A stretch of DNA of 64,000 nucleotides from a virus. The notes below the pieces were generated by a model. It was not told the DNA's origin, ran no database searches, and saw only the letters and a program-made list of their open reading frames with translations. Positions 2,960 through 55,409 of this stretch are shown in pieces (positions within the stretch are counted from its first letter, which is position 1; each line of letters begins with the position of its first letter). Made by a program: the position numbers and the translations under genes. The stretch covers positions 62,001 to 126,000 of IMG/VR virus record IMGVR_UViG_3300048029_000212; one strand, 5' to 3'.

Positions 2960-2966
2960 GTAGATT

Positions 2967-36400: not shown

Positions 36401-38077
36401 ATCACTACAGAAACAAACGCACGTCAAGTTGCTGACAACGCTCTAGACTCACGTCTAACAGTCGTTGAAGGTGAAATGACTGCAACACAAACAGCTGCTG
36501 GCGTTAATGCTGACGGCACTTATGCAACTCCATCCGGCACTAACTACATCAATCTATCTACATCTCTTGCAGATGCAGACCAGAAGTTGGACGCAGCGAT
36601 CAAAGCAGTAGATACTGGTCGTTTATCAAAAGAGTCTTCACTTCAGGCACAGATTGATGCAGAAGAAGCTGCACGTATTGCTGGCGATTCAGATCTAACT
36701 GCATCTCTAGCGGCAGAAGTTGCCCGTGCAACGGCTGCTGAAGTTGCAAACGCAGGCGACATCGCAACTAACGCTGCAGCAATCGCTGCTGAATCAACTC
36801 GTGCACAGGGTGTTGAAACATCTCTACAGTCACAAGTTGACTTCATTAAGTCAAACACTGACTCTGCTGCACTAGACTCACTAACAGAAATCGTTGCTGC
36901 TTTCCAAGCTGCAGACGGTACTCTAACAGGTCTAGTATCACAGAACCAAACAGACATCGCTGCTAACGCGACTGCAATTGCTACTGAAACTTCAACACGT
37001 GTTTCAGAAGACGCTGCGATCCGTGCAGAGTTTGCTGCTGCTGACGTAATTCTACAAGCTGCAGTAGATACTAAGGTATCAAAGTCTGGCGACACAATGA
37101 CTGGTGTTTTGAACATGGGTTCAAACAAGGTTGTTGCGGTTGCAAACGGTACTGACGCAACAGACGCAGTCAACAAAGGTCAGATGGATGCAGGACTTGC
37201 TGCACAGCATATCTCTGTATTCTCAACTACTGATCTAAGTGAAGGCGATAACGAATACTTTACTCCAGCACGTGCTCGTGCTTCAATCTCTGTCACAGAC
37301 GTAGATGGTGAAGGCGACGTATCTTACAACAGTTCAACAGGTGTTCTATCAGTATCAACTGGTAAGGCATTCGTTGAGTTGGAAGACGTTACTGATTCAT
37401 CTCTAGGTACTGCAAAGGCAGGATATGTTGCTCGCGTACGTACAGACGGTACTGGTATCGAGCTTGTTGATCCAACTCAACTTCAGTTCAATGACGCACA
37501 ACGTCAGACACTAAGCGGTGACGGTTCACAAACAGTATTTGCACTAGATTTCGCAACTACTAACCAGAACTCGTTCGTGTTTGTTGGTGGTGTTATTCAG
37601 GATCCAACAACTCACTACACAATTGATGGTCCTAATCAGACAATCACATTCACTTCTGCTATCCCAGTCGGTACACAGGCGGTTGTTATCGCTCAGTCTA
37701 CTAACTCGGTTGGTGTCCTAGATCCTAAGTCTGTTGGTGCTGAAACACTAGCTGACGAAATCAAGGCATTCATTCAGGGTGAAGATGTTGCTGTAGGTAC
37801 ATCTGCTGTTGTCGTATCTTCGTTTGATTCAACTGTCCATCGTTCTGCTAAGTTCATCGTAACTGTAGATCTAGGCGGTCAACACGAAGTACGTGAGTGC
37901 ATGGTAATCCACGACGGAACCAATGCATATATAACAGAGTACGGAATCGTTTATACAGGCGCAGGTCTGCTAGGTGATACCGACGTTCAAATGACAAATG
38001 GTTCAGTAGAACTAACATACACAGCTGTAAGTGCTGGTGCAACCGTTAAGGTCACTGCCACTCACGTTGACGTATAA
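33452..38077 (+). CDS. 1,541-residue alanine-rich coiled-coil tail fibre
   Basis: It starts after a strong ribosome-binding site (TAGGAG). The N-terminus (FRQIKSPALADKAVINTKLD) is a fibre-type opening, followed by a TDDISEGTTENSSKYFTDAR motif (about 66-85). Residues about 90-1,190 are an Ala/Glu/Asp/Thr-rich coiled coil (pattern 'EEAARIAADxxLxxxLAAEV') that contains four copies of the SPETLDT-type block. The C-terminal 330 residues are beta-rich: NMGSNKVVAVANGTDATDAV, a second LSEGDNEYFTPARAR, then the FVGGVIQDPTTHYTIDGPNQ module and a terminal sandwich ending in VKVTATHVDV. One segment parallels the 433-residue fibre at 2.97 kb. It is a long rod-like fibre; its attachment site and receptor are unknown. 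Confidence 0.8.
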   Translation: MAFRQIKSPALADKAVINTKLDESAVQGQAELQGMVNPADCFTLLYDVGSDSLKKIGADDFIASFSTDDISEGTTENSSKYFTDARAKEAVAQDIADAVATESSRASAAETLLQQNIDAEEAARIAADATLTADLAAEVTRAVAREDAIELAYQTADSALTTRIDNIVSNTDPAALDSLAEIVVAFQNADSVLTASTIANSTAISNEVTRATTAEADLQGQITAEVSARTAGDTALQTALTAEEAARIAADNALNVRLTTEEGNVDTLQSDLAAEIVRATAAEAVNAQDIADEETRATAAEAANAQSIQDEISARATADTQVRTDMTALINSGDAATLVSAKAHDDLLIGDATVDGTTGNTVTDRIASAEAASKSHADSGVAAEEAARIAGDSDLQAGLDAEIARATAAEGVLTSDLAAEVVRATGVESGLRTDVDAVQSQVTTILGASPETLDTLEEIVSAFVDADSDISALVSSNTTAISTEASVRASADTALQNAIDAEAATRGTADAGLQTQIDNITLDYIDRDSDVLFAAKAYTDQEADLHQAAAIAHADAQDAALIGDATVDGTVGNTVTARILTAKQEANDFTTAQVTAEAATRSAADDALSLRTTALEGEMDAVEALADQNETDLRAEEVARAAGDATLQSNIDAEAVARANADTALQNNIDAEAVTRASADSDLTASLAAEVARATGIEGGLRSDVNTNTAAIAQNAADLTIEVTRAQAAEQANATAIADETTRATGVEGGLRTDVDAVTGRVDAIVGTSPETLDTLQEIVAAFEDADSDLQNVISANSGRLTVNEADIDALELRATDLESRSTSLEGRATALETEQGLQAGRLTVNEADIDALEAKIGSAEETLDTTAQTLTGAINEVHGETDVNTAGLAAAVARADADSDALVSEIATRVLEDSAIRSEFAAADVVVTNAYIAADAVVKSEAATDATTKADTAEANAKTYADGIVANEATLRENADNVLDGKITTETNARQVADNALDSRLTVVEGEMTATQTAAGVNADGTYATPSGTNYINLSTSLADADQKLDAAIKAVDTGRLSKESSLQAQIDAEEAARIAGDSDLTASLAAEVARATAAEVANAGDIATNAAAIAAESTRAQGVETSLQSQVDFIKSNTDSAALDSLTEIVAAFQAADGTLTGLVSQNQTDIAANATAIATETSTRVSEDAAIRAEFAAADVILQAAVDTKVSKSGDTMTGVLNMGSNKVVAVANGTDATDAVNKGQMDAGLAAQHISVFSTTDLSEGDNEYFTPARARASISVTDVDGEGDVSYNSSTGVLSVSTGKAFVELEDVTDSSLGTAKAGYVARVRTDGTGIELVDPTQLQFNDAQRQTLSGDGSQTVFALDFATTNQNSFVFVGGVIQDPTTHYTIDGPNQTITFTSAIPVGTQAVVIAQSTNSVGVLDPKSVGAETLADEIKAFIQGEDVAVGTSAVVVSSFDSTVHRSAKFIVTVDLGGQHEVRECMVIHDGTNAYITEYGIVYTGAGLLGDTDVQMTNGSVELTYTAVSAGATVKVTATHVDV

Positions 38078-38159: not shown

Positions 38160-41100
38160 ATGAATACTAACAAAAAGTTTAGGATTCAGAACGGCGTTGA
38201 CGTAAAAGGTGAATTAACCGTCAATGATGTCGTTATAATCCGAGCTGATGGTACTATAGTTGCAGGGGCCATCGCAGACGCAGTCTCATCTCTAGTAGAT
38301 GAAGGTGCACTCACTGGTTCAGGCAGTTCTATCGTCGACTCAGATTCACAAATTTTCATAGATGTAAACAGTAACACAGTTGCAATCGCATCTGAAACAG
38401 CAACACGTATTTCAGATATTGCATCCCTACAAACTCAGATTGACTCACTAGGAGTTAACTCCGACACTCAAGCAGCAGTAGATTCACTACAAACTCAAAT
38501 TGACTCCATCTTAGGCGCTTCACCAGAAACACTTGATACTCTTGTCGAGATCGTTTCCGCTTTTGAAGGTGCAGATAGTGACATTCAATCACTTCTAGCT
38601 GCAAACTCATCTCAACTAACAGCCAATTCAACACAGATAACTTCTGTTGCGAATGATCTTGCAGTTGAAACAACTCGCCGTATTGCCGGCGATAACGCAC
38701 TGCAAAATAGTTTGAATGCTGAGATCGCACGTGCGATAACGGCAGACGATCTAAACGCGGCCGCAATTACTGCTGAAGCAGTTGCACGTCAAGCAGACGT
38801 TGCAAGTTTGCAAGCATCACAGTTCACGTATAACGACAGTGACGGTTGGGCAGGAAACCTAATTCCATCATTGGATAACGAGTACACACTAGGTTCTCCA
38901 GATCGCGTATGGAAAGATCTATACATCGGTCCAGGCTCTCTGTACATTAACGGTACTAAGATTCTAGAAGACAACAGCGGTACAATCACTATGTACGCAG
39001 ACGCAGGTCAGAACCTGTCGTTCGGCGCAACAGGTGGTGGTAACATTGATCTAAACGCTGGCGACGAAAGTGTCCAGTTGAAGTCAGATCTAGTAATGTC
39101 CGTTGGAGAAACAATTTCTACAGTCGGCGGCGAACCAACTAAGTTTGGTGGTGCTGTTGATATGGGAACACACAAAGTTACAAATGTCGGTGTTCCAGTA
39201 GATGCTTCAGACGCTGCAACAAAAGAATATGTTGACAGTTTAAATGCAGACGGTACAATCACTGGCGATAAAGTCTTTGAAGATAATGTAACCATCGAAG
39301 GCAATTTGACCGTCGAGGGTACTACAACAACTCTAGACAGCCAGACCTTAAAAGTAGCTGACAACATCATCGATCTAAACAGCAATGTTTCTACAGGTGC
39401 TCCGGTACTTAACGCAGGTATTCGTATCATGCGTGGTGACGAACCTGCAGTTCAACTACGTTGGAACGAACTAGACGATCGTTGGGAAGTATACGACGGC
39501 GTTACAGCAACTCCAATCGCAGTAACAAGCACAGACGCTATTGCTGAAGGTGACAATAAGTTATTCTTCACAGTCGTACGCGCACGTGAGGCAGTATCTC
39601 AGGATATCGCTGATGCAGTCGCTGCGGAAGCAACGGCACGTGGTGCTGCAATTGATGCAGAAATTGCTCGTGCAACATCTGCAGAACAAGCAAACGCTGC
39701 GGCAATAGAAACAGAAAAGACTGCTCGTGAAGACGCAGTAACTGCAGAAGCGGCCGCTCGTGTTGCTGGCGATGCAACAGTACAAGCTGCAGTAGACGCA
39801 GAACAAGCAGCACGTATTGCTGCTGACCTATCAGAAGCACAAACACGTGCAGCTGCGGTCTCTGATCTACAATCACAGTTGAATACTGTAACTGGTAGCG
39901 ATTTATCAAGCATTCAATCACAACTAGACGCAATCGTTGGAACATCTCCAGAAACACTAGACACAATTCAAGAAGTTGTGGCGGCGTTTGAAGGTGCAGA
40001 TAGTGACCTTACAGGTCTAATCACAGGCAACTCTTCTACTATTGCGGCAGTAAATGCATCATTGACTCAAGAAGTCTCTGAACGTACATTCGCTGTTCAA
40101 GCAGAAGCAACTGCACGTGAAAACGCAGACGATGCATTACAGTCATCTATTGATGCAGAAGAAGCATCGCGTATCTCTGGCGATTCAGATCTAACCGCAT
40201 CACTAGCAGCAGAAGTTTCAGCTCGTGAAGCGGCAGATACCGCAGAGTCAAGTGCTCGTGTTGGTGCAATTTCCGCAGAAGCAACCGCTCGTGTTGCAGG
40301 TGATGCAACAGTACAGGCAGCAGTAGACGCAGAAACGGCTCGTGCAACAGCGGCTGAACAAGCAAACGCTACAGCAATCTCTGCAGAAGAGACCCGCGCT
40401 TTAGCGGCAGAAGCCTTGTTGCAAAACAAGATTGACCAAGTTGAGGCGGGTGGACAAGCTCACCCATTGTTCTCTACTATGGGAGATCTACCAGACGCAT
40501 CTGCAAATCACGGTATGTTTGCACACGTCCACGCAGAAGGTGCGGCATACTTTGCACACGGTGGTCAGTGGGTAGAACTAGCGAAGTCTTCGGATCTAGC
40601 AAACTTAGATCTATCAAGCATCCAGTCACAGATTGATGCGATCTTGGGTTCATCTCCAGAAAATTTGGATACACTACAAGAGATCGTAGCTGCATTCCAA
40701 AGTGCTGATGGTGATCTACAGACATTGATGACTGCAAACTCATCCGCGATTGGTGATGTTAGTTCTCTAGACACATCTGCCTCAACACTAGTTGATGCGA
40801 TTAATGAACTACACACTGAGTTATCAGATACAGCTGGTGCAGATGCAGCACTTCAACAAGAAGTAGACGCACGTATTGCAGCCGACACTTCAGAAGCAAC
40901 TTCTCGTATCGCTGGTGACGCTGATCTTGCGGCGGACATATTAGACGAGAAGACTCAACGCATCGCACAGGCGTCTATCGAGACGACTGCACGTATGTCT
41001 TCTGACAGCGCTCTACAAGCACAGATAGATGCAGAAGAATCTGCACGTCTAGCTGGTGACGCTTCCTTACAGACATTTATTAACACACAGTCGCAAAACC

Positions 41101-44100
41101 TTACAGACGAAACAACTTCACGTATTGGTGCTGATGGAATTCTACAGAACCAAATTGACGATATTGTTGCAGATAACGCAGCTCGAACTGCAAGTGGCGC
41201 AACTGTCGCCGAACTCAATGCTGTAGAAGATGCATTGGACGCAGAAGTTGTTCGTGCTCAGTTGGCAGAACAGGCTAACGCAAGTGCAGTCGTCACAGGT
41301 GACGCAGCACTACAAGCACAACTAGATGCAATTATCGGTACGTCCCCAGAGACATTAGATACTCTACAAGAAATTGTATCTGCATATGAAAGTGCTGATA
41401 ACAGTCTACAGAATCTAATCAACACAAACACTGGTACACTAGCTGCACTACAGACAACAATTGGTGCTGAAAACGTTCCTCTAATTACTCCAGACATCGG
41501 TGAGACAATCACCTATGAAGTAGAGTATGCGGGTCGTCAGTTCTATGCGGTTGCTGATAGTTATAACGTCTATGTGTATGATAGCGCAAGATCAAATCCA
41601 AGGGTTCCTGTTGCAACAATCTATAATGGTGGTAACAGTGTTCACATAATGGATATGAACAGTGAAGCAGTATTTGTTCGATGGAATTCTAACGCACACA
41701 TAGTTTACAGATATGAATTATCAGACCTAGTTTTAGGTATAACTTCATCTTCTAAAAATTACAGACCAGCTGAAGCTGGCGGACAAAGCGTCTCAGCCTT
41801 TGCCGTTTCTGAAGATTACATTTATGTGCACGAAACTAGTGGAACAGACCAAATCTGGAGACAACCGCTATCAGAAGGCGGAACTACAGGTGCTGTCTCA
41901 ACATATACTATTAACGGACTTAATACGTATAAAATGCGAGTTTTCGGTGATAAGTTATATGCGCTTAGAACTTCTGGTACTGATACTCTTTGGGTCTGGG
42001 ATATTGACGCAACCGATGGTTCTTTGAGTAATGCACATCAATTAACTTCTAGTGATTTGAACTCAGATACTATTGCTTGGGGGTCAGGCGAACTTACTGG
42101 CGCATTCGAAGCTTCATCTACTCTTATTGCTGTAGGTGCTCCGAACGATGATACGCAAGGAATCAATCATGGTTCTGTTTATTTGTTTAATCCGGATAAC
42201 CTAAATGAACCACACACTAAGTTATATGCGCCACCCGAATACGCATCTTCCAATCTTCAATTTGGACATTCTATCGCTTTAACAGATACTCGATTGATTG
42301 TTGGTGCTTTAGATGCTAGCAGTATGAGCACAACTCCAAGTTCTAATGGACTTATGTTCATTTACGACTCTACAAATTTGATTTTACCACCTTTAGTTGT
42401 AGAATCGCCTGATGAAGGTGTTAGTAACTTTGCACGATCCATACACGAAGAAAGCAACCGGTTGTTGGTAAGAAGTGCTTCAGAAACTGGCATTTATGTC
42501 TATGATCTAACAAATATGGATCAAGATCCTATTAATTTGATAGAACCTACCAACAGTACTGCGGGCGGCACATTCGGTAATCGTATGGCAATCTCGCCAG
42601 CGGCAACTGTTACGCAGTCAATCACTGACACAATCATTCCAGCTGCTGGTCTAGGTAACTCGATCAACTACTTGGAATCTAAGCGTCAGGAACTACGTGC
42701 AGATCTAGAAGCAAACTTGGCAGCAATTCAGTCAAATGATGCAGATATCGCTGCAGTAGCAGCAGACGTTGCAACTAACACTGCAAACATTGCAACTAAT
42801 GCAGCTGCAATCGTTGCGGTAGATGCAGATCGTACTGCATTCGAAGCATCTGTAAACGCGGAGCGTCAAACACACCGTGATGCAGTTCAAGCTGATATTG
42901 ATCAGGTGAATGCTGATCGTACTGCGTTTGAGAATACAGTAAACGCTTCTCAAGCAGAGTTTATCTTAGATCACGATTCTGATTATACCTCGTTCACATC
43001 AAGTGTAGAAAGTGCATTTGCGACAACGAATGAACTTCAAGAAGAAATTCGTACTCGCATGGGCGTGGGTCACGTTGCTTTACCACAAGACACAACCTCT
43101 ATCACTTATGATAGGCAGATCCCAGATCAGTACTATGTTGTGCGTCGTGGCGATGATGAGACTTATGTTTACACTTCAGCCAATTGGTCATCAACTGGTC
43201 AAAACGTTGGTGTAAGTACAAGAATTCAGTTCCCAGACGAATATACGTCGAATAATGCAACAGATCAGATGGTCGTAACTCGCGATTATGCAATATTCCT
43301 TGTGGATAAGGCAAATGTCTCGGGCGAACATTCGTTCTTAGTATATGATTTAGAAACAATCAATGTCTCATCAACACCAATTGCAGTCGTAGATTGTGAA
43401 GGATTTGATAGAAACTTAGAGTATGATGGTGGAACCAAACTAATGGTCACCAAGTATCAAGATCACTCGGACGATAGTTTAGGCGGCGTAAGGGTTTATG
43501 ATATTCCATCATTAGCCTCAGGCAGTGCAATCTATGTCGAATCTATGGTCGACGATCTACCTTCTTCACTTAATATACCAGGCCCTGATGTAACTGATGG
43601 GGATCTTTGGTATGGTAATCATGCAGCTTGGAACAGTACGCACATATTCGTTGCTCTAGGAGGACAAAGAAAGGTTGTTGTTTACAATAAGTCTGATCTG
43701 TCTTTCGTAACTACATTGTCGGATACCGTAACCAATGGCAGCGATTTTGGTCGTGTATCTGTTCGTGCAAGTGATACGATGGTGGCAGTCACTTCTCGTA
43801 ATGGTCAATATAATTGGTCTGATGGTACAGGTAAAGTTGCTGTCTTTGATGCAACTGACTTATCCATACCACCTGTTATCATAACTGATAACAATATGGT
43901 TCGACATTACAGTTCGTCAGATCGTCCAGATAACCATTATTACTATGCATTTAATTCTCAAGATCAAATAGCAGTTCATGACGATTATCTTTTCTTAGGT
44001 AATACTGGGCATTTCTACTACGGTAACAACGGCAGAGTATACGTAATCCCTAAAGCTATTGCCTTACAAGGCGATTCGGCTATGCCAAGCAACGGTACCA

Positions 44101-47100
44101 ATTCTGCTGGTCTATTAAGTTGGAAAGATACAACTTGGGGGCACTCAGATAATGGCAGTGATGCCAGATATGCTCATGAGATTTCTGTTCATGGAGATTT
44201 GTTCGTCGTAAATGCTCATGACTACAGACAACATTCGTTTAATCGTACTAATTTGACGATGATCCATGATATTAATGATCTATCTCTTGCTCCGGTAAAA
44301 ATTGAAGAAATTGATGATGGAACAACTTCGTATGCATCTACTGTTATTTCTCCTCGTGCAACAATCACAGAATCTTACACTGAAACATTCAATCCGAATG
44401 ACAGTCTAACGTCTGCGGTTAACTACTTAAATGCTAAGAAAGAAGAACTTCTTACTGCGGTAGGTGCACTAACGGGATCGGCCTCATTCGTTGAAGACGT
44501 ACAAGCAATCGAAGACAATATTGACTTCAAACTTGCTGCACAAGATCAACGTTTCGATTCTGATAAAGCAGAACAGGTTGCGATTTATGCACAGGCTAAC
44601 TTAGATCAGTCTGCGGTATATGCTGCTGCAAACGCAGAGCAAGCGTCAATTTATGACAGTGCAAACGCGGCACACGTAGCATACTTCGAACAGTATACTG
44701 ACGGAGAAACTGCTGCACGTGAAGCTGCAGACACAACTTTGCAGACAAACATTGATACTGAAGAATCAGCACGTATTGCTGGTGATTCAAATCTACAATC
44801 TCAGATCGATGCTATCCTAGGGGCAAGTCCAGATCACCTAGACACTATGGTAGAAATTGTATCAGCATTTGAAAATGCCGATTCAGATATATCTAATCTA
44901 CTTTCAACAAACGCAACAAACAACGCTGTTAACGCGACTGCTATTTCTGCACTAGAATCTAGTGTTGAGGCAATTGCTTCTGCGACAGAAGTTGATTTAG
45001 ATGCGAAAGTTCCTTTTGTCTTCGTTAAGAAGCCAGAAGCAAACACAGTACTTGCTTACAACGGTAATAACCTAAACCTATCACCTATCGAACTAACTCC
45101 AAACCGTGAGTCTGGTGAGACAGTAGATGCGGATATGGGTTATGGTGTTGACGTTGCGGTATCATCAACTAAGGTTGTTGTTGCAGCATCAAACGGCGAG
45201 TTCTTTGTGTATGACGCATCGGATTTGTTCTCTGCTCCGACTATCATCAACAGTGGCGTAACTTCTGGAGACTTCGGTTCTTCAATTGTTATGACTGACG
45301 ACGTTATTGCTATCAGTAGTGTTTCGGACAGTTCATACGGAACTGTGAAACTATACGACGCAAGTTCTTACGCTCTATTAAGCACAATAGAACCTTCTGT
45401 AGGTTCTGCGGGTATGGGCTATGGACACTCTATGGCAATCAGAGGAACTACTTTGGTAGTCTCTTCACCTAAGCAACAAATGACTATGGAATCGGTAGTT
45501 TCTGTTGGTTTCCTTTATGTCTATGACATCACCAATCCAGCATCTTCATCTTTAGTTGCGACTCTAAGAGGTCCAAACTCAGATGTGGGTATTATCGGTG
45601 GTTCAGTAACTATGAACGATCGTTGGATTGCAACATCATTGACTGATAAGGCTGTTGTTTGGGATAGATTGAACCTGTCAGAATCTCCAAAAGTATTCAG
45701 TACTGGTGGTCTAGAATCTGGTCTAACCCAAGGTGGTCTATGGGGAGCGAAGAGAAGCGGACAAGGAGGATGGTCAAGCGGTATTGACATGCCGTTGTCA
45801 AACGCTAGCCTATACACCAATCAGATTAACCTAGGTGATGAAGGTGACTACTATAGTTACCAGTTTGTTGGTTACTTTAAAGCTCCAGAAACAGCAAACT
45901 TTACTTTCAGAATAAATTCTGATAACCAAGGGTTGATGTGGATCGGTGAAAATGCATTAATGAACACTTCAAATAGAGGTACTGCCGAAGCAATCATATA
46001 TCAGACTAACGTTGGTACAGATACTGCAACAGTCTCAATGGTTGAAGGTGAAATGTATCCTATCTTGTTGTCTTTCACCGAAAACGTTGCTGGCGCTTGG
46101 TTCCAGTTTACATGGCAGGGTGGTGCACAGACAAGTTACACTTATGATCTGACACAGCACTTCTACTACTATGCTGACGAAGCAAACTTCTCACCAGCAC
46201 ACATTCCTGTCAACTCTATTGAACCAATCATCTTAGAAGATAACAAGATGTACATCGGTTCATACAATGGCGTTAGCATCTGGAATGATATCTCAACAGT
46301 TAATACAACAGATTACACTGATTGGAAACAAGCTGTTGCTGCTGACTCGCAAGTTGTTGCTCCTAACAACGAAGATCAGTTTGGTGTCGCGATTGGTTTG
46401 ATGTCCGGATTCCTATTCGTAGGTTCTAACTCACAGTCAATCTCTGTATTTGAGGTTGCAAACCTAGACAACCCACCAAACGTTAAGTTGATCGATTCTG
46501 TTTCACGTAATCTTGAATCAGTACCTGCTGAACTTGCTCCGCCTGTTGCGGAAGGTCTACTGACTAATGCAGATTCAACGATCGGTGCGATTAACGAAGT
46601 TCACAACGAACTAGACGCTGAAGTAGTACGTGCACTTGGTATCGAAGCTGGTCTACGTACCGATGTCGATGCAAACGCTGCAACTATCAATACTAACATT
46701 GTAGATATTGCAAATGAGACTTCGGCTCGTGTTGCTGGTGACTCAGTTCTACAAGCACAGATTGATAACATTGTCGGAACGTCTCCAGAAACTCTGGATA
46801 CAATCCAAGAAGTTGTTTCTGCATTCCAGAATGCTGACAACGACATTCAGACATTAATCTCAAACAACTCTACACATCTATTAAGTCTAGAGAATGAGAT
46901 TAGTGGTGGTGCAGGACTAACAAACCTACCTAATGTGATGACAGAAATTTCACGTACGGTCTATCAAGATCAGTATATGATTGTTTCTGGTAACAAAAAT
47001 AGTGGTTCAGTCTACGTCTTTGATGCAAACAATCCAACTGAACAGCCAGTTAAGTTAACGCACCCAGACGGAATTACAGGTGGTTACTTTGGTCACGCAG

Positions 47101-50100
47101 CAGCTGTTGTTCGCGAATATCTGGTTATCAGTGACCCATACGATGACACTATAGTAAGTAATCAGGGCGCTGTATTTGTATATGAAATAGCGGACTTGAC
47201 TATTCCTCCAGTTAGACTACATCCTAACATCACAAGCGAAGCTGACATGCAGTTTGGTTGGGATGTTACTGGTACCGATGAGTTCATTATTGTCGGTTGT
47301 CCGGGCGATGACTATACCGTACCTGAAGCATCTAATACCAATACGGGTTCTGTTTATCTATTTGACGTTAATAACTTAGGATTAAGTCCTACTGTACTAA
47401 CCCCTACTCACTCTCAGATTGAGCTATATGGAAACTCAAACGATGCAGACAATGACGATAACACTTACTTTGGTCGAAGAGTAGAAGTTATCGACAACAT
47501 GTTAGTAGTCGGTGCTGATAACTACGGCGAAAGGGACGGTTTTACGGGCGAATATTCAGGCGGTCACACCGAGCAATATTCAAGTGGGTCATTACGCGGA
47601 TATTATGGTGCCATATACACATATGACCTAACGAACCTTTTGAACAGTGGATCTTCAATCTCTAATCTTAGTGCTATAAACTGGCATAACGATAATTACT
47701 ACAACAAGTATTACGCTTCGGGAGAAAGTCCGAGTCGTGGATATGGTCAGTATGGTATTGCCATGAGCAGTACTCATATTTTCGTAGGTATGCCTTATGA
47801 CGACTATGATCCTGATGGAGGAAAATACGATGTTGGACTCATATCAATACACCCAAGATCAAATGATTATGGAGTTAGTAGTGATTATAGGTTCATTAGA
47901 GCTCCCGATTGGTATGAACAAAATCAAAATTTTGGTTGGGACCTAGCGACCGACGAAAACTACTTGTATGTTGGTGTTCCATACGATGATAATCCTTATG
48001 GCGTCAACGCAGGACAAGTTCTTGTTTATGAACTAGAAGGACTTTACGATAACGCTACTCAGGCTGGATCATATGCTCCACCACCAGTGTTTACACTGAA
48101 TGCACCAGATGCTTCGGCAGGTGATAACTTCGGTTATAAGATTTCTGTTAACGGCGGTAAGTTAGCCGTTGCTGCTCCTTACGATGATGATCAAGGAACT
48201 AACTCTGGTGCTGTATACATTTATCAGACAAATCTGTTAACTGGTGTTCCAGTCAAGATCACTCCAAGCGATTTGGTAGATCAAGACACAACTACTACAG
48301 AACAGTCATTCGGATATAGAAGTTTAAGCTTGACACTGGCTTCTGGTGCAGTAGAGATCACAGAACACGTTCTACCGAACTCTGGTATCTCAACAGGTAT
48401 GAACTACTTGATGCATAGAACCAATCAGTTAGAACAGTTGGCAAATGATGTTAACGTTAACGCTTACAATTATGCTAACAATATTTCTGTTGCACAGGAA
48501 GGATACGGCATAGGTATTGCAGACAACGCTGCGGCAATTGCTACAGAAACGACTGCACGTGCTGATGGTGATGCAGCTCAACAAGTTGAGATCGATTCAT
48601 TAACTACGATCACAACAGATCTAACATCACAATTGAGTGCAGAGATTTCTCGTTCAACGACCGAAGATACAATCTTAACTCAAAGAGTAGATATCCTTTC
48701 TAGCGCACTACAACCAGACTCAGACGGAGATATTAGAGTCGAAGGTTTGGCAACGTTTAGTGATGGAATCTCGGTTGGTACAAGTGGTGGTGCGATCGGA
48801 CACGATCCATTAAGTGACGCGATTACTATCATGTCTGATCTAGACATGAATGAGCATCAAGTCCTTAACATTGCAGAACCTACAGTTGATAAGGATGTTA
48901 CTACTAAGTTGTATGTTGATACGCAAGTTTCCAACGAAGAAACTCGTGCGACAACTGTGGAAACAGATCTACAGGCTCAGATTGACCACATCGTTGGTAC
49001 ATCACCAGAGACTCTAGACACGTTCCAAGAGATCGTCTCAACACTTCAGGGTTCAGATAGTGATCTACTAGCACTAATGACCTCTAACGCAACAGGTGTT
49101 GGCGGTTTGAATGCATCTCTAACTACAGAGACTGCAAACCGCGAAGCTGCAGATACTGTTCTACAATCTAACATTGACGCTGAAGAAGCATCACGCATTG
49201 CGGGTGATTCGGATCTACAATCGCAGATTGATTCGAACGACACAGACATCTCCAATTTGGATTCAGATGTCGGTGCAGTATCATCGTTGGCAACAACTGC
49301 AACAACTGTTGTTGGTGCGATCAACGAAGTTCACTCAGAACTAGATGCTGAAGTTATTCGTGCTGTTTCTGCAGAAAATGCAGAAGAGACACGTGCTCTA
49401 GCGGCAGAAGGTGTGCTACAGTCTAACATCAACACTGAGTCTTCATCTCGCATCGCGGGTGACGCAAGTCTACAGTCTCAGATTGACGGATTGTCTAACA
49501 CACAGGTCGCTGATAAGGGTGGACTAGAAGTATCTCTAGCTACTGAGGTCGCTCGTGCTACTCTCGCAGAAGGTGCGCTACAAAGTGCAATTGATGCAGA
49601 AGAACTACGCGCAACAACTGCAGAAGGTGTAAATGCTGCCGCTGTCGTAACTGAACAGTCTCGTGCAGAAGCAGTAGAAGCAGGTCTTGCTGCGGATATC
49701 GCGGTAGAAACTGCTCGTGCAACGGCTGCAGAAACTCAACTTGCAAATCATCTAGGCGCAAACTTTACTGACGGATCTATCACAGTTGACGGTCTAGCGA
49801 CATTCAACGGTGGTCTATACTTCGGTGACGGAACTGGTACTATCGGATTCAACGCTGACGTTGACAATCTGCAGGTACTTTCAAACCTAGACCTAATGGG
49901 CAACAGAATCATTAACTACCCAACTCCGGTAGATTCTGGTGACGTTACCACTAAGGGATATGTTGATGCAACTACACAAGCAGTAAGTGATCGTGTTGAC
50001 GCAATCCTACAAGGTGCTGGTGAATCACTAGACACTATTGTTGAGGTTGTTGCGGCATTTGAGAACGCGGATAGTGATATCCAGTCTCTGATCACATCTA

Positions 50101-53100
50101 ACAGCACAAGCGTAACGGCTAACACTGACGCAATTAATGCAGAAGTGGCGGCACGTCAACAGGCAATCACAGATGAAGCATCTGCTCGCAGAAACGCTGA
50201 CTCTGACTTGAGTGCTGGTTTGTCGAACGAAACATCTCGTGCTCTATCGGCAGAAGGTGTACTAACGTCTGATCTAGCTGCTGAAGTTGCCCGTGCAACA
50301 TCTGCAGAAACAGGTCTTGCGTCAGACATTGCTGCTGAAACATCACGTGCAACAGCTGCTGAGGGTGTTAATGCTCAGGCAATTGCCGATGAGACAACAC
50401 GTGCGACTACGGTCGAAGCGTCACTTGCTCAAGACATTGCTGATGAGTCACTACGTGCACAAGGTGCGGAAGCGGTATTAACTTCTGACGTATCTGCAAA
50501 CGCGACTGCGATTTCAGGTTTACAATCACAGGTTGCTGGTGTAAGCACATCTTCTGGTTCATCTAACATTGAGATGAGTGCTGAAGTTGACATGTCTGGT
50601 AACAAGATTACTGATATGGCTGATCCAACTGCCGCACAAGACGCTGCAACTAAGTCATACGTTGATGCAACTGTCGCGACAGAAGCAACTAGTCGTACAA
50701 CAGAAGACACTTCACTGCAGTCTAACATTGACGCTGCAAATGCTCGTATCGACGCGATTCTAAATGGTTCTGTTGAATCACTAGACACCGTCGTTGAGGT
50801 TGTAAGTGCATTTGAAGGTGCGGATAGCGATATCCAAAACCTAATTACTGCGAACGCTTCAACAATTTCGCAGAATGCTGCTGCAATCGCAACTGAAGCA
50901 ACTGATCGTGCGAACGCTGACTCAGATGAGGCTGCACTACGTGTTGCTGGTGACGCAGTACTAACTGCTGATCTTGCTGCTGAAGTTGCTCGTGCACAGA
51001 CTGCAGAATCTGCAGAGACAAGTGCTCGTGTTGCTGCTGACTCTGACTTGCAGACACAGATTGACTTCATTAAGGAAAATACTGATCCAGCTGCATTGGA
51101 TTCATTGACTGAACTAGTCTCTGCATTCCAAGACGCAGATAGTGACGTTACCACAATGGTGGCCTCAAATGCAAGCGCAATTGCTGCAACGAACGCACGT
51201 ACTGCAGGTATCAGTGTAGATTCCGACTCTAATGTCGCATTGTCAGTAGGCATTGAGATGGGTCAGAACAACATCAAGGATGTTAATGATGTTTACGCTA
51301 ACCGTGCATTCATTGACACGATTGAATCGAATGACCTGAAAGTTCAAACAGGAACTGTTGATTTCGAAGGTTCTATAGTAAACTTCGGTTCATCAACAAT
51401 CATTGGTGGTGGTTTCGGTAATGCTACTAAGGCAGAGATCGACCAACACTTGAATGTTTCTGCTGCGGATTCTGGTGAGTTCTTGAAGTGGAACGGAACG
51501 GACTACGAGTTCACTGATTACATTCAAGGTCGTATTGCTTCTAACCAAATCGTAGTTGAAGGAACACTAAAGGTAGAACAGCCAGGATCAACTATTGATT
51601 GGCAAGATGGTCTAGTACACTTCGGTGGTTCACAAGTAATCGTTGACGAACCAACTTCAGCAAATCTTGCTGCAAACAAGCGATATGTTGATGAAGCTGA
51701 TAGTGATCTAAATGCACTACTTTCTACTGCGATTTCAAACGAGGAATCTCGTGCGACAACTGCAGAAGGTGTATTGACAACTAACTTGGCTAACGAGATC
51801 TCTCGTGCAACGTCTGCGGAAGCGACACTTGCATCTGACATCTCTGCGGAAGAGTCACGTGCTCTAGCGGCAGAAGCTGCAGAAGCAAGTACTCGTGCTG
51901 ACGCTGATTCGGACCTACAGTCTGCGATCGATGCTGAAGTTGCTCGTGCAACTGCGGCAGAAGCGGTTAACGCACAAGCGGTTGTTGACGAAGGTACAGC
52001 ACGTACTACTGCAGATAATACTCTACAGTCTAACATCGACACAGTAAGTGGACGTGTTGACGCGATTCTAAATGGTTCTTCGGAGTCACTAGATACAATC
52101 GTAGAAGTTGTCGCTGCATTTGAGAACGCAGATTCTGATCTACAAACACTAATCTCATCTAACGCAGGATCACACACAGCGAATGCTGCTGCGATTACTG
52201 CAGAAGAGACACGTGCCCTAACTGCTGAAGGTGTACTACAAAGTGCAATCGACGCGGAAGAGACACGTGCGACTGGTGTTGAAACAGATCTACAATCTCA
52301 GATCACTTCTGAAGTTGCGGCACGTTCTGCTGCAGATCAGTCAATGAGAGAAGATCTAGACTCAGACATCGCTGCTGAAGCTGCACTACGTGTTGCTGGT
52401 GATGCGTCGTTACAGTCTGGACTAGATGTAGAAGTTGCCCGTGCAACTGCTGCGGAAGGTGTTCTACAGTCACTACTAGATTCAGAACAGTCTGCTCGTA
52501 TCCTATCTGACCAAGGTCTACAGTCTGCAATCACTGCAGAAGAGAACGCACGTATCGCGGCTGATGCAGTACTTCAGTCTGCAATTGATGCTGAAGAGTT
52601 AGCAAGAACATCTGCTGACAATGCACTTCAGGCGAACATCAATGCGGTAGATGCGGCAGTAACTGCAATCACAAACGGTTCTCCAGAAACTCTGAACCAG
52701 TTGGTTGAAGTTGTCGCGGCATTTGAAGATGCTGACTCTGATCTACAGACCGTAATCTCTAATCTAGGTGGTGACGCAAGTGCATTGACTGCACGTGTTT
52801 CAACTCTAGAAAGTGAGATGGACGCAACTGAACTTGCAACAACGTCTAACGCAAACGCTATCTCTGCTGAGACAGTGGCGCGTGTTGCTGCGGTACAGGT
52901 GAATGCGGATGCGATTACTGCAGAATCAACTGCTCGTGCTGCTGCGATTACCGCAGAACAGAACGCACGTGCGGCTGCAATCGTTGCATCTGAATCTGAT
53001 CGTGATTCTGCTGACGCAGAACTACAATCTCAGATTGACGCATTGTCTGCGGAAGAGACTGCAGGTAAGAGTTCACTACAGTTCCAGTTAGGTCAAGAAG

Positions 53101-53657
53101 AAGATGCTCGCATCGCGGGTGATTCTGATCTGACTGATTCACTAGCTGCTGAAGTTGCCCGTGCGACTGCTGCAGAAAGTGCACTGTCAAGTGATATCTC
53201 TGCTGAAGAAAGTGCTCGTGTATCTGCAGACGCAAGTCTACAGTCTCAGATTGACTTCATCGTATCTAACACTGACTCTGCATCACTAGATTCTCTAACA
53301 GAGATTGTTGCAGAATTCCAGTCAGTAGATGGAACGTTATCTGGTCTAATCAGTAGTAATGGTTCACGCATCACTTCACTAGAAACAAATGTTGGAACTA
53401 TCAATAGTTGGACAACAGACAACCTATCAGAAGGATCAATCAACAAGTACTGGACAGAACAACGTACTAAGGATTGTCTATCTGGTGGTCTATGTATCGA
53501 CTACAACTCAACAACTGGTGAGATTGCAATTGACGAAGTAGAAGCTGCTTCATCACTAACAGTTGCGGAATCGCATGACGCGAACGCACTGGGTGGACAA
53601 GCTCCTACATACTACCGTATCAACGTCTATGACGCTGCCGGTAACCTAGTCAACTAA
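38160..53657 (+). CDS. 5,165-residue giant tail fibre with four beta-propeller-like blocks and a PA14-like domain
   Basis: One uninterrupted 15.5-kb frame. The N-terminus (KFRIQNGVDVKGELTVNDVV, about 6-25) is a fibre-type opening. Ala-rich coiled coil with thirteen SPETLDT-type blocks forms the rod. Four propeller-like blocks lie at about residues 1,100-1,495, 1,633-2,090, 2,284-2,794 and 2,914-3,404. They repeat strands of the type 'LVVGAPYDD...G.VYVYD' with FG preceding, as in FG-GAP repeats. The third block is interrupted by a PA14-like domain at about 2,517-2,657. Several 'M..N.I....P...DAATK.YVD' motifs follow. The C-terminus (DANALGGQAPTYYRINVYDA) is a fibre-end motif. The gene ends before a strong terminator. 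It is probably a very long receptor-binding fibre; no experimental role is implied. Confidence 0.85.
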   Translation: MNTNKKFRIQNGVDVKGELTVNDVVIIRADGTIVAGAIADAVSSLVDEGALTGSGSSIVDSDSQIFIDVNSNTVAIASETATRISDIASLQTQIDSLGVNSDTQAAVDSLQTQIDSILGASPETLDTLVEIVSAFEGADSDIQSLLAANSSQLTANSTQITSVANDLAVETTRRIAGDNALQNSLNAEIARAITADDLNAAAITAEAVARQADVASLQASQFTYNDSDGWAGNLIPSLDNEYTLGSPDRVWKDLYIGPGSLYINGTKILEDNSGTITMYADAGQNLSFGATGGGNIDLNAGDESVQLKSDLVMSVGETISTVGGEPTKFGGAVDMGTHKVTNVGVPVDASDAATKEYVDSLNADGTITGDKVFEDNVTIEGNLTVEGTTTTLDSQTLKVADNIIDLNSNVSTGAPVLNAGIRIMRGDEPAVQLRWNELDDRWEVYDGVTATPIAVTSTDAIAEGDNKLFFTVVRAREAVSQDIADAVAAEATARGAAIDAEIARATSAEQANAAAIETEKTAREDAVTAEAAARVAGDATVQAAVDAEQAARIAADLSEAQTRAAAVSDLQSQLNTVTGSDLSSIQSQLDAIVGTSPETLDTIQEVVAAFEGADSDLTGLITGNSSTIAAVNASLTQEVSERTFAVQAEATARENADDALQSSIDAEEASRISGDSDLTASLAAEVSAREAADTAESSARVGAISAEATARVAGDATVQAAVDAETARATAAEQANATAISAEETRALAAEALLQNKIDQVEAGGQAHPLFSTMGDLPDASANHGMFAHVHAEGAAYFAHGGQWVELAKSSDLANLDLSSIQSQIDAILGSSPENLDTLQEIVAAFQSADGDLQTLMTANSSAIGDVSSLDTSASTLVDAINELHTELSDTAGADAALQQEVDARIAADTSEATSRIAGDADLAADILDEKTQRIAQASIETTARMSSDSALQAQIDAEESARLAGDASLQTFINTQSQNLTDETTSRIGADGILQNQIDDIVADNAARTASGATVAELNAVEDALDAEVVRAQLAEQANASAVVTGDAALQAQLDAIIGTSPETLDTLQEIVSAYESADNSLQNLINTNTGTLAALQTTIGAENVPLITPDIGETITYEVEYAGRQFYAVADSYNVYVYDSARSNPRVPVATIYNGGNSVHIMDMNSEAVFVRWNSNAHIVYRYELSDLVLGITSSSKNYRPAEAGGQSVSAFAVSEDYIYVHETSGTDQIWRQPLSEGGTTGAVSTYTINGLNTYKMRVFGDKLYALRTSGTDTLWVWDIDATDGSLSNAHQLTSSDLNSDTIAWGSGELTGAFEASSTLIAVGAPNDDTQGINHGSVYLFNPDNLNEPHTKLYAPPEYASSNLQFGHSIALTDTRLIVGALDASSMSTTPSSNGLMFIYDSTNLILPPLVVESPDEGVSNFARSIHEESNRLLVRSASETGIYVYDLTNMDQDPINLIEPTNSTAGGTFGNRMAISPAATVTQSITDTIIPAAGLGNSINYLESKRQELRADLEANLAAIQSNDADIAAVAADVATNTANIATNAAAIVAVDADRTAFEASVNAERQTHRDAVQADIDQVNADRTAFENTVNASQAEFILDHDSDYTSFTSSVESAFATTNELQEEIRTRMGVGHVALPQDTTSITYDRQIPDQYYVVRRGDDETYVYTSANWSSTGQNVGVSTRIQFPDEYTSNNATDQMVVTRDYAIFLVDKANVSGEHSFLVYDLETINVSSTPIAVVDCEGFDRNLEYDGGTKLMVTKYQDHSDDSLGGVRVYDIPSLASGSAIYVESMVDDLPSSLNIPGPDVTDGDLWYGNHAAWNSTHIFVALGGQRKVVVYNKSDLSFVTTLSDTVTNGSDFGRVSVRASDTMVAVTSRNGQYNWSDGTGKVAVFDATDLSIPPVIITDNNMVRHYSSSDRPDNHYYYAFNSQDQIAVHDDYLFLGNTGHFYYGNNGRVYVIPKAIALQGDSAMPSNGTNSAGLLSWKDTTWGHSDNGSDARYAHEISVHGDLFVVNAHDYRQHSFNRTNLTMIHDINDLSLAPVKIEEIDDGTTSYASTVISPRATITESYTETFNPNDSLTSAVNYLNAKKEELLTAVGALTGSASFVEDVQAIEDNIDFKLAAQDQRFDSDKAEQVAIYAQANLDQSAVYAAANAEQASIYDSANAAHVAYFEQYTDGETAAREAADTTLQTNIDTEESARIAGDSNLQSQIDAILGASPDHLDTMVEIVSAFENADSDISNLLSTNATNNAVNATAISALESSVEAIASATEVDLDAKVPFVFVKKPEANTVLAYNGNNLNLSPIELTPNRESGETVDADMGYGVDVAVSSTKVVVAASNGEFFVYDASDLFSAPTIINSGVTSGDFGSSIVMTDDVIAISSVSDSSYGTVKLYDASSYALLSTIEPSVGSAGMGYGHSMAIRGTTLVVSSPKQQMTMESVVSVGFLYVYDITNPASSSLVATLRGPNSDVGIIGGSVTMNDRWIATSLTDKAVVWDRLNLSESPKVFSTGGLESGLTQGGLWGAKRSGQGGWSSGIDMPLSNASLYTNQINLGDEGDYYSYQFVGYFKAPETANFTFRINSDNQGLMWIGENALMNTSNRGTAEAIIYQTNVGTDTATVSMVEGEMYPILLSFTENVAGAWFQFTWQGGAQTSYTYDLTQHFYYYADEANFSPAHIPVNSIEPIILEDNKMYIGSYNGVSIWNDISTVNTTDYTDWKQAVAADSQVVAPNNEDQFGVAIGLMSGFLFVGSNSQSISVFEVANLDNPPNVKLIDSVSRNLESVPAELAPPVAEGLLTNADSTIGAINEVHNELDAEVVRALGIEAGLRTDVDANAATINTNIVDIANETSARVAGDSVLQAQIDNIVGTSPETLDTIQEVVSAFQNADNDIQTLISNNSTHLLSLENEISGGAGLTNLPNVMTEISRTVYQDQYMIVSGNKNSGSVYVFDANNPTEQPVKLTHPDGITGGYFGHAAAVVREYLVISDPYDDTIVSNQGAVFVYEIADLTIPPVRLHPNITSEADMQFGWDVTGTDEFIIVGCPGDDYTVPEASNTNTGSVYLFDVNNLGLSPTVLTPTHSQIELYGNSNDADNDDNTYFGRRVEVIDNMLVVGADNYGERDGFTGEYSGGHTEQYSSGSLRGYYGAIYTYDLTNLLNSGSSISNLSAINWHNDNYYNKYYASGESPSRGYGQYGIAMSSTHIFVGMPYDDYDPDGGKYDVGLISIHPRSNDYGVSSDYRFIRAPDWYEQNQNFGWDLATDENYLYVGVPYDDNPYGVNAGQVLVYELEGLYDNATQAGSYAPPPVFTLNAPDASAGDNFGYKISVNGGKLAVAAPYDDDQGTNSGAVYIYQTNLLTGVPVKITPSDLVDQDTTTTEQSFGYRSLSLTLASGAVEITEHVLPNSGISTGMNYLMHRTNQLEQLANDVNVNAYNYANNISVAQEGYGIGIADNAAAIATETTARADGDAAQQVEIDSLTTITTDLTSQLSAEISRSTTEDTILTQRVDILSSALQPDSDGDIRVEGLATFSDGISVGTSGGAIGHDPLSDAITIMSDLDMNEHQVLNIAEPTVDKDVTTKLYVDTQVSNEETRATTVETDLQAQIDHIVGTSPETLDTFQEIVSTLQGSDSDLLALMTSNATGVGGLNASLTTETANREAADTVLQSNIDAEEASRIAGDSDLQSQIDSNDTDISNLDSDVGAVSSLATTATTVVGAINEVHSELDAEVIRAVSAENAEETRALAAEGVLQSNINTESSSRIAGDASLQSQIDGLSNTQVADKGGLEVSLATEVARATLAEGALQSAIDAEELRATTAEGVNAAAVVTEQSRAEAVEAGLAADIAVETARATAAETQLANHLGANFTDGSITVDGLATFNGGLYFGDGTGTIGFNADVDNLQVLSNLDLMGNRIINYPTPVDSGDVTTKGYVDATTQAVSDRVDAILQGAGESLDTIVEVVAAFENADSDIQSLITSNSTSVTANTDAINAEVAARQQAITDEASARRNADSDLSAGLSNETSRALSAEGVLTSDLAAEVARATSAETGLASDIAAETSRATAAEGVNAQAIADETTRATTVEASLAQDIADESLRAQGAEAVLTSDVSANATAISGLQSQVAGVSTSSGSSNIEMSAEVDMSGNKITDMADPTAAQDAATKSYVDATVATEATSRTTEDTSLQSNIDAANARIDAILNGSVESLDTVVEVVSAFEGADSDIQNLITANASTISQNAAAIATEATDRANADSDEAALRVAGDAVLTADLAAEVARAQTAESAETSARVAADSDLQTQIDFIKENTDPAALDSLTELVSAFQDADSDVTTMVASNASAIAATNARTAGISVDSDSNVALSVGIEMGQNNIKDVNDVYANRAFIDTIESNDLKVQTGTVDFEGSIVNFGSSTIIGGGFGNATKAEIDQHLNVSAADSGEFLKWNGTDYEFTDYIQGRIASNQIVVEGTLKVEQPGSTIDWQDGLVHFGGSQVIVDEPTSANLAANKRYVDEADSDLNALLSTAISNEESRATTAEGVLTTNLANEISRATSAEATLASDISAEESRALAAEAAEASTRADADSDLQSAIDAEVARATAAEAVNAQAVVDEGTARTTADNTLQSNIDTVSGRVDAILNGSSESLDTIVEVVAAFENADSDLQTLISSNAGSHTANAAAITAEETRALTAEGVLQSAIDAEETRATGVETDLQSQITSEVAARSAADQSMREDLDSDIAAEAALRVAGDASLQSGLDVEVARATAAEGVLQSLLDSEQSARILSDQGLQSAITAEENARIAADAVLQSAIDAEELARTSADNALQANINAVDAAVTAITNGSPETLNQLVEVVAAFEDADSDLQTVISNLGGDASALTARVSTLESEMDATELATTSNANAISAETVARVAAVQVNADAITAESTARAAAITAEQNARAAAIVASESDRDSADAELQSQIDALSAEETAGKSSLQFQLGQEEDARIAGDSDLTDSLAAEVARATAAESALSSDISAEESARVSADASLQSQIDFIVSNTDSASLDSLTEIVAEFQSVDGTLSGLISSNGSRITSLETNVGTINSWTTDNLSEGSINKYWTEQRTKDCLSGGLCIDYNSTTGEIAIDEVEAASSLTVAESHDANALGGQAPTYYRINVYDAAGNLVN

Positions 53658-53753: not shown

Positions 53754-54524
53754 ATGTATTCTACAACTAGAGAAGAGTTAATTGATTACTGTCTACGCGC
53801 ACTGGGCCATCCAGTAGTAGAAGTAAACATTGACGAAGAACAGTTAGATGATCGTATTGATGAGGCGTTGCAGTGGTTTCGTGAAAATCACCCCGATGGT
53901 TCTAAAAGATATTATCTAAAACACCAATTAACCGAACAGGATATTGAGAATCAGTATGTTGATTTTCCAGATAATCTAGATCTGTCTGCGGTTGTTCGTA
54001 TGGTGCCAGTAACATTTAGTTCTGCACACTCAGGGTGGTTTAGTGATGCGTGGCAAGTTATGGCCTACACTATGTCAGACTTTACACGAAATGGTGGGAT
54101 CTTAGGAGATCTTGCACACTACGAACAAATGCAACAACAGTTATCACTCCTAGATATGAAACTTGGTGGTATGCCTCAGATCACATTTGATCGTCAGTAT
54201 AATCGTGTTAATCTACACGTTTCTAAAACGAAATTAGAACTGCATGATTATATTGTATTTGAGGTCTACACTATTCGTGATCCAGATGAGTCTGTTACAG
54301 AATATAACTCACTTTGGAATCATCGTTTTCTAAAAGAATATGCAACCGCACTGATAAAGAGACAGTGGGGACTCAACCTAATCAAGTTCGATGGTATGGC
54401 ACTGCCTGGCGGTGTTACTGTCAACGCACGTCTTATTTACGAAGATGCACTTTCAGACATCGAGAGAATAATTGAACGTTTTCGTACGGACGAAGATGAA
54501 GGTCCAATGTTCTTCATGGGGTAA
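53754..54524 (+). CDS. 13: neck protein gp13
   Basis: 256 residues (T4 gp13 has 309). The N-terminus (TREELIDYCLRALGHPVVEV, about 5-24, then NIDEEQLDDRIDEALQWFRE) is the typical opening of gp13 in marine T4-like phages. Near the C-terminus EYATALIKRQWGLNLIKFDG (about 198-217) and LPGGVTVNARLIYEDALSDI are also family features. gp13 forms the neck with gp14 on the portal after DNA packaging and receives the finished tail. It is first in the transcript of the conserved 13-20 cassette. The next gene starts 3 bases after its stop. Confidence 0.88.
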   Translation: MYSTTREELIDYCLRALGHPVVEVNIDEEQLDDRIDEALQWFRENHPDGSKRYYLKHQLTEQDIENQYVDFPDNLDLSAVVRMVPVTFSSAHSGWFSDAWQVMAYTMSDFTRNGGILGDLAHYEQMQQQLSLLDMKLGGMPQITFDRQYNRVNLHVSKTKLELHDYIVFEVYTIRDPDESVTEYNSLWNHRFLKEYATALIKRQWGLNLIKFDGMALPGGVTVNARLIYEDALSDIERIIERFRTDEDEGPMFFMG

Positions 54525-54527
54525 GAC

Positions 54528-55409
54528 ATGGCTACTAATCCATATATTAGTTTAAAAAACAGACAAGAACAGAACCTCTATGAAGACATTCTCATTGAGG
54601 CAATTCAGTTCTATGGTCAGGATGTTTACTATCTCCCACGCGAAGTGGTCGAGAGAGAAGACATCTTCTTAGATAGTATTCAGTCTCAGTTCTCTGACGC
54701 CTACAAAGTTGAGGTGTACATCGAGAACGCAGAAGGTTTCGAAGGCGAAGGCGATCTGTTCACTAAGTTCGGCATCGAGTTGCGTGATCAAGCTACATTT
54801 GTTATCGCACGACGCAGATGGAAAAGTTTGATTGGTGATCGTCTTTCTGACGCACAGTTCCGTCCACGTGAGGGCGATGTAATATACTTGCCTCTATCAG
54901 AATCTCTTTTCGAGGTCAAACGCGTCTATACAGAATCTCCGTTTTATCAACTATCCCAACTGCCTCTTTTCCGTATGCAATGTGAGTTGTTTGAATTCTC
55001 CGATGAGGACTTTGATACTGGCATTCCGGGCATTGACAACGTTGAGGTTGAAGGCGCATTCCAATACGAACTCAAGATGCCAGACGAAGGCATGGGTCGT
55101 GAAATCTATTACCTTGTCGGTGAAGATGTTTATCAAGAGTTTGATGACTTCCGACTTGAGGGTGAAGTCACTTATTGGAACCACGACACACGTGTCCTCA
55201 AGATTGCACACACGGGCGCAACAGACGGTAAGTATCACGAGTGGGCGACAAACAGACCTGTTATTGGCGAGAACGCATCATTGACACCTATCTCTGAAAA
55301 AGAGGGAGTCAACGAGATTGATCGTTTGGCACAGAAAGAAGTGTTTGATGATTGGGCAAATGACTTTGTTGATTTCTCAGAATCCAATCCGTTTGGAGAT
55401 ATATTCTAA
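54528..55409 (+). CDS. 14: neck protein gp14
   Basis: 293 residues (T4 gp14 has 256). The opening NRQEQNLYEDILIEAIQFYG (about 11-30) followed by QDVYYLPREVVERED is the recognised N-terminal block of gp14. The middle contains FTKFGIELRDQATFVIARRR (about 78-97) and a beta-rich segment FRPREGDVIYLPLSESLFEV (about 110-129). The C-terminus (FDDWANDFVDFSESNPFGDI) is an acidic tail. It lies between gp13 and gp15 in the T4 order, and its TAA overlaps the gp15 start (TAATG). Forms the head-to-tail connector together with gp13. Confidence 0.9.
   Translation: MATNPYISLKNRQEQNLYEDILIEAIQFYGQDVYYLPREVVEREDIFLDSIQSQFSDAYKVEVYIENAEGFEGEGDLFTKFGIELRDQATFVIARRRWKSLIGDRLSDAQFRPREGDVIYLPLSESLFEVKRVYTESPFYQLSQLPLFRMQCELFEFSDEDFDTGIPGIDNVEVEGAFQYELKMPDEGMGREIYYLVGEDVYQEFDDFRLEGEVTYWNHDTRVLKIAHTGATDGKYHEWATNRPVIGENASLTPISEKEGVNEIDRLAQKEVFDDWANDFVDFSESNPFGDIF

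Follow-up and report, generated by a model that had tools for sequence, protein, structure and literature searches.

In a marine T4-like phage, one uninterrupted gene of 15.5 kb encodes a protein of 5,165 residues in which a helix-rich rod is broken by four propeller-like blocks. We consider it probable that this protein is an exceptionally long, presumably trimeric virion fibre with four lateral, exchangeable adhesion modules. Profile, fold and family evidence support the reading as a fibre with propellers, most strongly for block 4, moderately for block 1 and more weakly for blocks 2 and 3. The window, that is the whole stretch of 64,000 nucleotides analyzed, corresponds to positions 62001-126000 of a 160,050-base virus record.

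Integrity of the giant gene

38160..53657, + strand: giant fibre gene, ATG start, 5,165 aa, calculated 542 kDa per chain

An earlier note on this DNA described a single open frame filling almost one quarter of the window, and this was borne out: from the ATG through the stop, the 5,165 codons contain no internal stop. The same note had considered that a sequencing error might have merged several genes. Against this speaks IMGVR_UViG_3300048136_000075 (contigs L002/L125, referred to below as the relative), which comes from another sample: its collinear frame runs for at least 4,635 residues and is still open where the contig stops. In addition, when the two genes were compared, dN was lower than dS in each rod and propeller segment tested (the propeller segments being those other than block 3), as under purifying selection, and a search for long near-identical repeats within the gene found none. 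Because of these three results, we regard misassembly or a fusion of several genes as a highly improbable source of the frame; the nearest complete family members are indeed 3 to 10 times shorter, but those with one propeller still reach 1,570-1,679 aa.

The rod and its conserved ends

38160..38264, + strand: conserved N-terminus, residues 1-35, NKKFR.QNG... (alignment A9, family search)
38835..39599, + strand: conserved core, residues 226-480 (alignment A1; found in family members adjoining gp13)
39600..41459, + strand: proximal rod, helix-rich, with the repeated motif GTSPETLDTLQEIVxAFExADSD
48432..53321, + strand: distal rod (composition, comparison with the relative)
53322..53657, + strand: conserved C-terminus, ...LGGQxPxYYRINVYDxxGxLVN (family alignments)

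The core of the giant fibre follows the pattern LGSPD.VWKDLYIGPGSLY.NGTKILEDNSGTI...ADNIIDLNSN...RWNE. Outside the four blocks, the composition of the protein is helix-like and rich in Ala, Glu and Gln. Long helices were seen between the blocks in single-chain AF2 models, and predicted helices flank blocks 1, 2 and 4. The hydrophobic periodicity of the rod was a mixture of about 3.5 and about 3.6, with no clean heptad. The conserved N-terminus is likely to be the attachment end.

Gene slot and family

33452..38077, + strand: neighbouring fibre gene, 1,541 aa (C48C1 counterpart annotated as tail fiber protein)
53754..54524, + strand: gp13, head-tail adaptor Ad2, marker of the wac slot (PHROG 211)
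54528..55409, + strand: gp14, neck protein (PF11649)
55409..57463, + strand: gp15, tail sheath stabiliser, carrying a DUF285/BspA-like extension at its C-terminus

Baseplate and fibre genes lie upstream of the giant gene, and gp13-gp14-gp15-gp16-gp17-gp18-gp19-gp20 follow downstream (gp16 assigned by position; the annotation of Phage C48C1 was used). The giant gene thus occupies the slot of wac in T4, directly upstream of gene 13 (T4 order wac-13). In cyanophage S-RIM50 the same slot is taken by a structural protein of 5.2 kb; the cyanophage marker PF00124 (PsbA/PsbD) is absent from the phage studied here. The N-terminus of the 1,541-aa neighbour, MAFRQIKSPALADKAVINTKLDE, recurs in several relatives. 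As a side observation, ARAGORN placed a tRNA-Gln with anticodon CTG at 19817-19894 (minus strand), inside a structural gene of 1,859 aa (14715-20294), which is probably a chance match.

A family sharing the N-terminus, core and C-terminus of the giant protein is encoded beside gp13. This holds for more than 25 contigs, of which many are near-identical copies contributed by related samples. Its complete members range from 373 to 1,679 residues and have either no propeller or one (L004, L115 and L116; L117 by weak match only). In Phage C48C1, whose large terminase gp17 is 95% identical, the member has 594 residues and no propeller. Since the relatives are short and even C48C1 has only this small protein, we infer that the giant form arose recently by elaboration of a small fibre; loss in C48C1 is alternatively conceivable.

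Position in the wac slot might suggest a homolog of T4 fibritin. This was rejected, as no homology was detected by profile comparison or BLAST: hhalign of alignment A9 against T4 wac, whose N-terminal neck-binding domain comprises about 50 residues, gave a probability of 0.1%, and the first 60 residues of the giant fibre gave no BLAST match to T4 wac. Nor is the family assigned to tail or neck fibres by any profile with strong support. The lack of homology to fibritin is in keeping with a different reading, in which the protein is a counterpart of T4 gp34-37, a long tail fibre attached to the baseplate; its gene would lie beside gene 13 by chance, and its propellers would bind the primary receptor. 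Marine T4-like phages do encode fibres within this structural cluster, the neighbours at 24293-29695 and 33452-38077 are fibre-like, and an L-shaped tail fibre assembly protein is encoded close by. However, the strict adjacency to gp13 throughout the family mirrors wac, and the 594-aa protein of C48C1 is far below the size of a T4 long tail fibre. We regard a long tail fibre as possible, if on the doubtful side. A bolder interpretation would make the protein a neck whisker that has grown in this phage lineage from about 600 residues to over 5,000, forms a multivalent, module-swapping net and catches cells far from the capsid independently of the baseplate fibres. Each trimer would display as many as twelve lateral propellers, and its reach of about 480 nm is an upper bound that applies if all non-propeller residues are coiled coil. 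It is put forward tentatively, as a somewhat unlikely case.

Propeller blocks in the middle of the chain

41460..42695, + strand: propeller block 1, residues 1101-1512 (FG-GAP_2, 5.4e-9)
43059..44450, + strand: propeller-like block 2, residues 1634-2097 (homology to the other propellers on iteration)
44967..46529, + strand: block 3, residues 2270-2790 (FG-GAP blades split by an inserted PA14/GLEYA domain)
45855..46115, + strand: GLEYA/PA14 domain inserted in block 3 (Pfam GLEYA 4.3e-13, PA14 7.6e-10)
46899..48431, + strand: propeller block 4, residues 2914-3424, integrin-alpha-like (FG-GAP_2 1.1e-33, AF2, Foldseek)

Composition and homology delimit four blocks, low in helix and rich in Gly, Tyr and Asp, that interrupt the rod. 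They lie nearly where the earlier note had placed them (about 1,100-1,495, 1,633-2,090, 2,284-2,794 and 2,914-3,404), with slight adjustment by the homologous boundaries. The blocks are beyond chance, first, because Pfam FG-GAP_2 (PF14312) matched block 4, block 1 and, at the cut-off, block 3 (E 9.5e-5), and secondly, because a profile built from the phage's own blades scored 1.3e-46 on the protein and was silent on shuffled sequences (0 of 200 at E<=10). For block 2 there was no Pfam FG-GAP match. Strands of the type VGxPYDD...G.VYVYD, which had been attributed to all four blocks, are well formed mainly in block 4 and partly so in blocks 1 and 3. Block 1 terminates in a conserved exit linker, GLGNSINYLE.

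Structure prediction bore out the reading as propellers unevenly. Block 4 was modelled by AF2 with pLDDT mostly of 70-95, and its best PDB matches in Foldseek were the heads of integrin alpha-5 and alpha-V (E down to 3.3e-11; alpha-5, 3.5e-11). The alignment spans the whole integrin propellers, with a TM of 0.59 by target against integrin alpha-5 (4wjk). Its top viral structural match, from cyanophage S-TIM5, was a virion structural protein with 407 aa (E=1.1e-23, TM 0.76 by target). Block 4 is clearly a propeller of the integrin-alpha type, and closure of its ring is likely from the model. Blocks 1-3, on the other hand, were predicted with low confidence (mean pLDDT 61.5 for the model of blocks 1 and 2 and 57.5 for the second model), and block 3 was badly modelled. 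The top PDB matches of the model of blocks 1 and 2, which shows long helices between the blocks, were double-propeller proteins with a TM of just 0.1-0.2, a value that probably results in part from a different placing of the two blocks. Ring closure appears plausible for both. Homology together with the low-confidence model suggests that block 2 is also a propeller.

The calcium loops of integrins (DxDxDGxxD) are absent from all four blocks. Integrin ligand motifs of the RGD kind were also considered, and the single RGD, in block 2, was judged to be a chance occurrence. Neither the sequence of block 4 nor its profile matched anything relevant in the PDB. In viral contigs a single-sequence search with block 4 found no relative, whereas an alignment query did find relatives.

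An adhesin-type domain inserted in block 3

Block 3 had been taken for a plain propeller. A partial FG-GAP block is indeed present, but it carries an inserted GLEYA/PA14 domain that the first reading missed. The insert comprises about 100 residues, is the sole GLEYA match in the phage record and scored above the cut-offs for both GLEYA (49.8 bits; cut-off 26.2) and PA14 (39.2 bits; cut-off 24). Among its relatives in the PDB are 6qdi and, marginally, the Epa adhesins. At the putative position of the D-cis-D calcium/sugar site, which was placed by sequence motif, the insert reads INSDNQGLMWIG, that is Ser-Asp. Yeast adhesins have Asp-Asp at this site.

Divergence and exchange of the modules

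Comparison with the relative, which has three propellers in at least 4,635 aa, revealed that the propeller modules diverge faster than the rod. The end rods are 78% (residues 1-1100) and 74% (residues 3425-4905) identical and the inter-propeller rods 50-67%, while identity falls to 57% in block 1, 35% in block 2 and 39% in block 4. Block 3 is replaced in the relative by an unrelated domain. At L002:17228-17785 a different β-rich domain lies in its place, and the rod of L002 has further jelly-roll-like inserts at about residues 890-1040 and 3480-3590. In addition, dS ranged from 0.50 to 0.62 for the end rods, against 0.94-2.8 for the propeller-bearing middle, except for the linker between blocks 1 and 2 (0.63). 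This distribution suggests that the middle has been exchanged by recombination, to which alignment error in the diverged blocks and saturation may add. Faster divergence of the modules can also reflect relaxed constraint. A diversity-generating retroelement was considered as a source of the variation and rejected, the 160-kb record containing no reverse transcriptase.

Other surface proteins of these phages also vary in their modules. The extension of gp15 (55409-57463), about 440 residues long, combines DUF285/BspA-like repeats with an EPEP-repeat linker. The gp15 of C48C1 stops after 258 aa; there the DUF285 module forms a separate gene of 420 aa elsewhere, 47% identical over 416 residues. 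Outside the window (genome 15383-17966), the same phage encodes two adjacent stand-alone FG-GAP proteins of 440 aa (L028:5384-6706) and 413 aa (L028:6726-7967), with seven profile matches each. At the corresponding locus, flanked by genes of 87% and 91% identity, C48C1 has its DUF285/BspA-like protein just mentioned, the first 30 residues of which are 47% identical to those of the 413-aa protein (E 5e-9). Judged from these sequences, the two proteins would have kept the anchor and swapped the head. Apparently, then, surface proteins trade modules and retain their anchors. FG-GAP-profile matches are more numerous, 40-48 each, in proteins of other, related marine viral contigs: L110:2801-15508 (4,235 aa), L112:1905-13370 (3,821 aa) and L111:2-7894 (at least 2,630 aa). 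The first two, with 41-48 matches, begin with MRFRHLTSA and resemble a 1,480-aa gene of C48C1, in which 13 such matches were found.

It is plausible that the propeller blocks are lateral modules for adhesion with a putative binding function, because they diverge faster than the rod, are swapped in the relative, include an adhesin-type PA14/GLEYA domain, vary in number, and have counterparts in other swapped surface modules; moreover, these module families serve adhesion elsewhere. The propellers could instead be structural spacers or scaffolds, providing stiffness, hinges or fibre-fibre contacts and binding no receptor. Phage nozzles, such as that of SU10, do use propellers as structural platforms (PMC9509320), and the propellers described here have no known ligand. 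Nevertheless, a mere spacer would have to be reconciled with divergence above that of the rod, replacement in the relative, presence or absence among family members, the inserted GLEYA/PA14 domain and the stand-alone FG-GAP proteins of the same phage. A purely structural role is therefore unlikely.

Proposed action of the fibre

On the preferred reading as a long fibre with lateral adhesion modules, the conserved N-terminus would attach the protein to the particle, possibly at the neck in place of the T4 whiskers, a site suggested by gene order only. A mostly alpha-helical coiled-coil rod, probably trimeric, would bear the four lateral modules, FG-GAP propellers of which one has the PA14/GLEYA insert. 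The modules may act as adhesins that hold glycans or proteins of the host surface reversibly through several weak, spaced contacts, so that binding would gain from avidity, and the committing contact would be made by the other fibres and the baseplate. Evolution may act on the modules through insertion, exchange and fast divergence, all inside a conserved rod.

If the fibre is built as predicted, a group of marine phages attaches through several spaced, exchangeable lateral modules per chain and not through one tip. Host range could then shift through cassette swaps inside a conserved rod, and the idea of neck fibres as primary adhesins, proposed for large fibritins (PMC3797505), would become testable. 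Adsorption could be compared across the family, in which the same gene slot holds 0, 1, 3 or 4 propellers as a natural series.

Comparison with known systems

The arrangement had been described as unknown from any characterised tail fibre. This does not hold for a propeller in mid-chain as such. In the crystal structure of Gp45 from Staphylococcus phage phi11 (PDB 5EFV), a trimeric coiled-coil stem is followed by a mid-chain beta-propeller, the proposed sugar-binding site, and a C-terminal tower (PMC4901313). The giant fibre, as known from sequence and models, shares the interrupted stem, the mid-chain propeller and a distal part; however, Gp45 has one five-bladed propeller per chain of about 636 residues, and the giant fibre has four FG-GAP-type blocks separated by rods in 5,165 residues. 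The PDB sequence search with block 4 found no sequence relation between them. A T4-like structural protein of Synechococcus phage S-MbCM6 (YP_007001806, 7,022 aa) likewise has a mid-chain FG-GAP propeller, at about residues 4456-4827, but a single one, in a protein that is not helix-rich and whose gene lies in the baseplate region, directly upstream of the tail-fibre-connector gene and not beside gp13.

T4 fibritin (gp wac) shares the slot immediately before gene 13 and has a segmented fibre build, as is predicted for the giant protein. It differs in its size (487 aa), in modules at the C-terminal end and in having no detected sequence homology. Fibritin variants of RB43 and Aeh1 contain Ig-like or long fibrous adhesin-like parts, for which a role as adhesin was proposed (PMC3797505). 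As for the modules, the S-TIM5 protein (H6WG31) has seven FG-GAP repeats and resembles block 4, but is a stand-alone propeller without a rod. The integrin alpha propeller has the fold of block 4 by Foldseek at 16% identity and differs in its calcium loops, so that the likeness does not imply integrin function. The insert of block 3 is like the PA14/GLEYA adhesins of yeast (Epa, flocculins) by profile, but is embedded here inside a propeller block. The open literature searched contained no paper dealing with FG-GAP propellers of phage fibres or of cyanophages, and we found no precedent for several spaced propellers per chain beside gene 13. Taken together, what is new here is the succession of spaced propellers along one chain in the wac slot, the insertion of a PA14/GLEYA domain and a family graded from no propeller to four.
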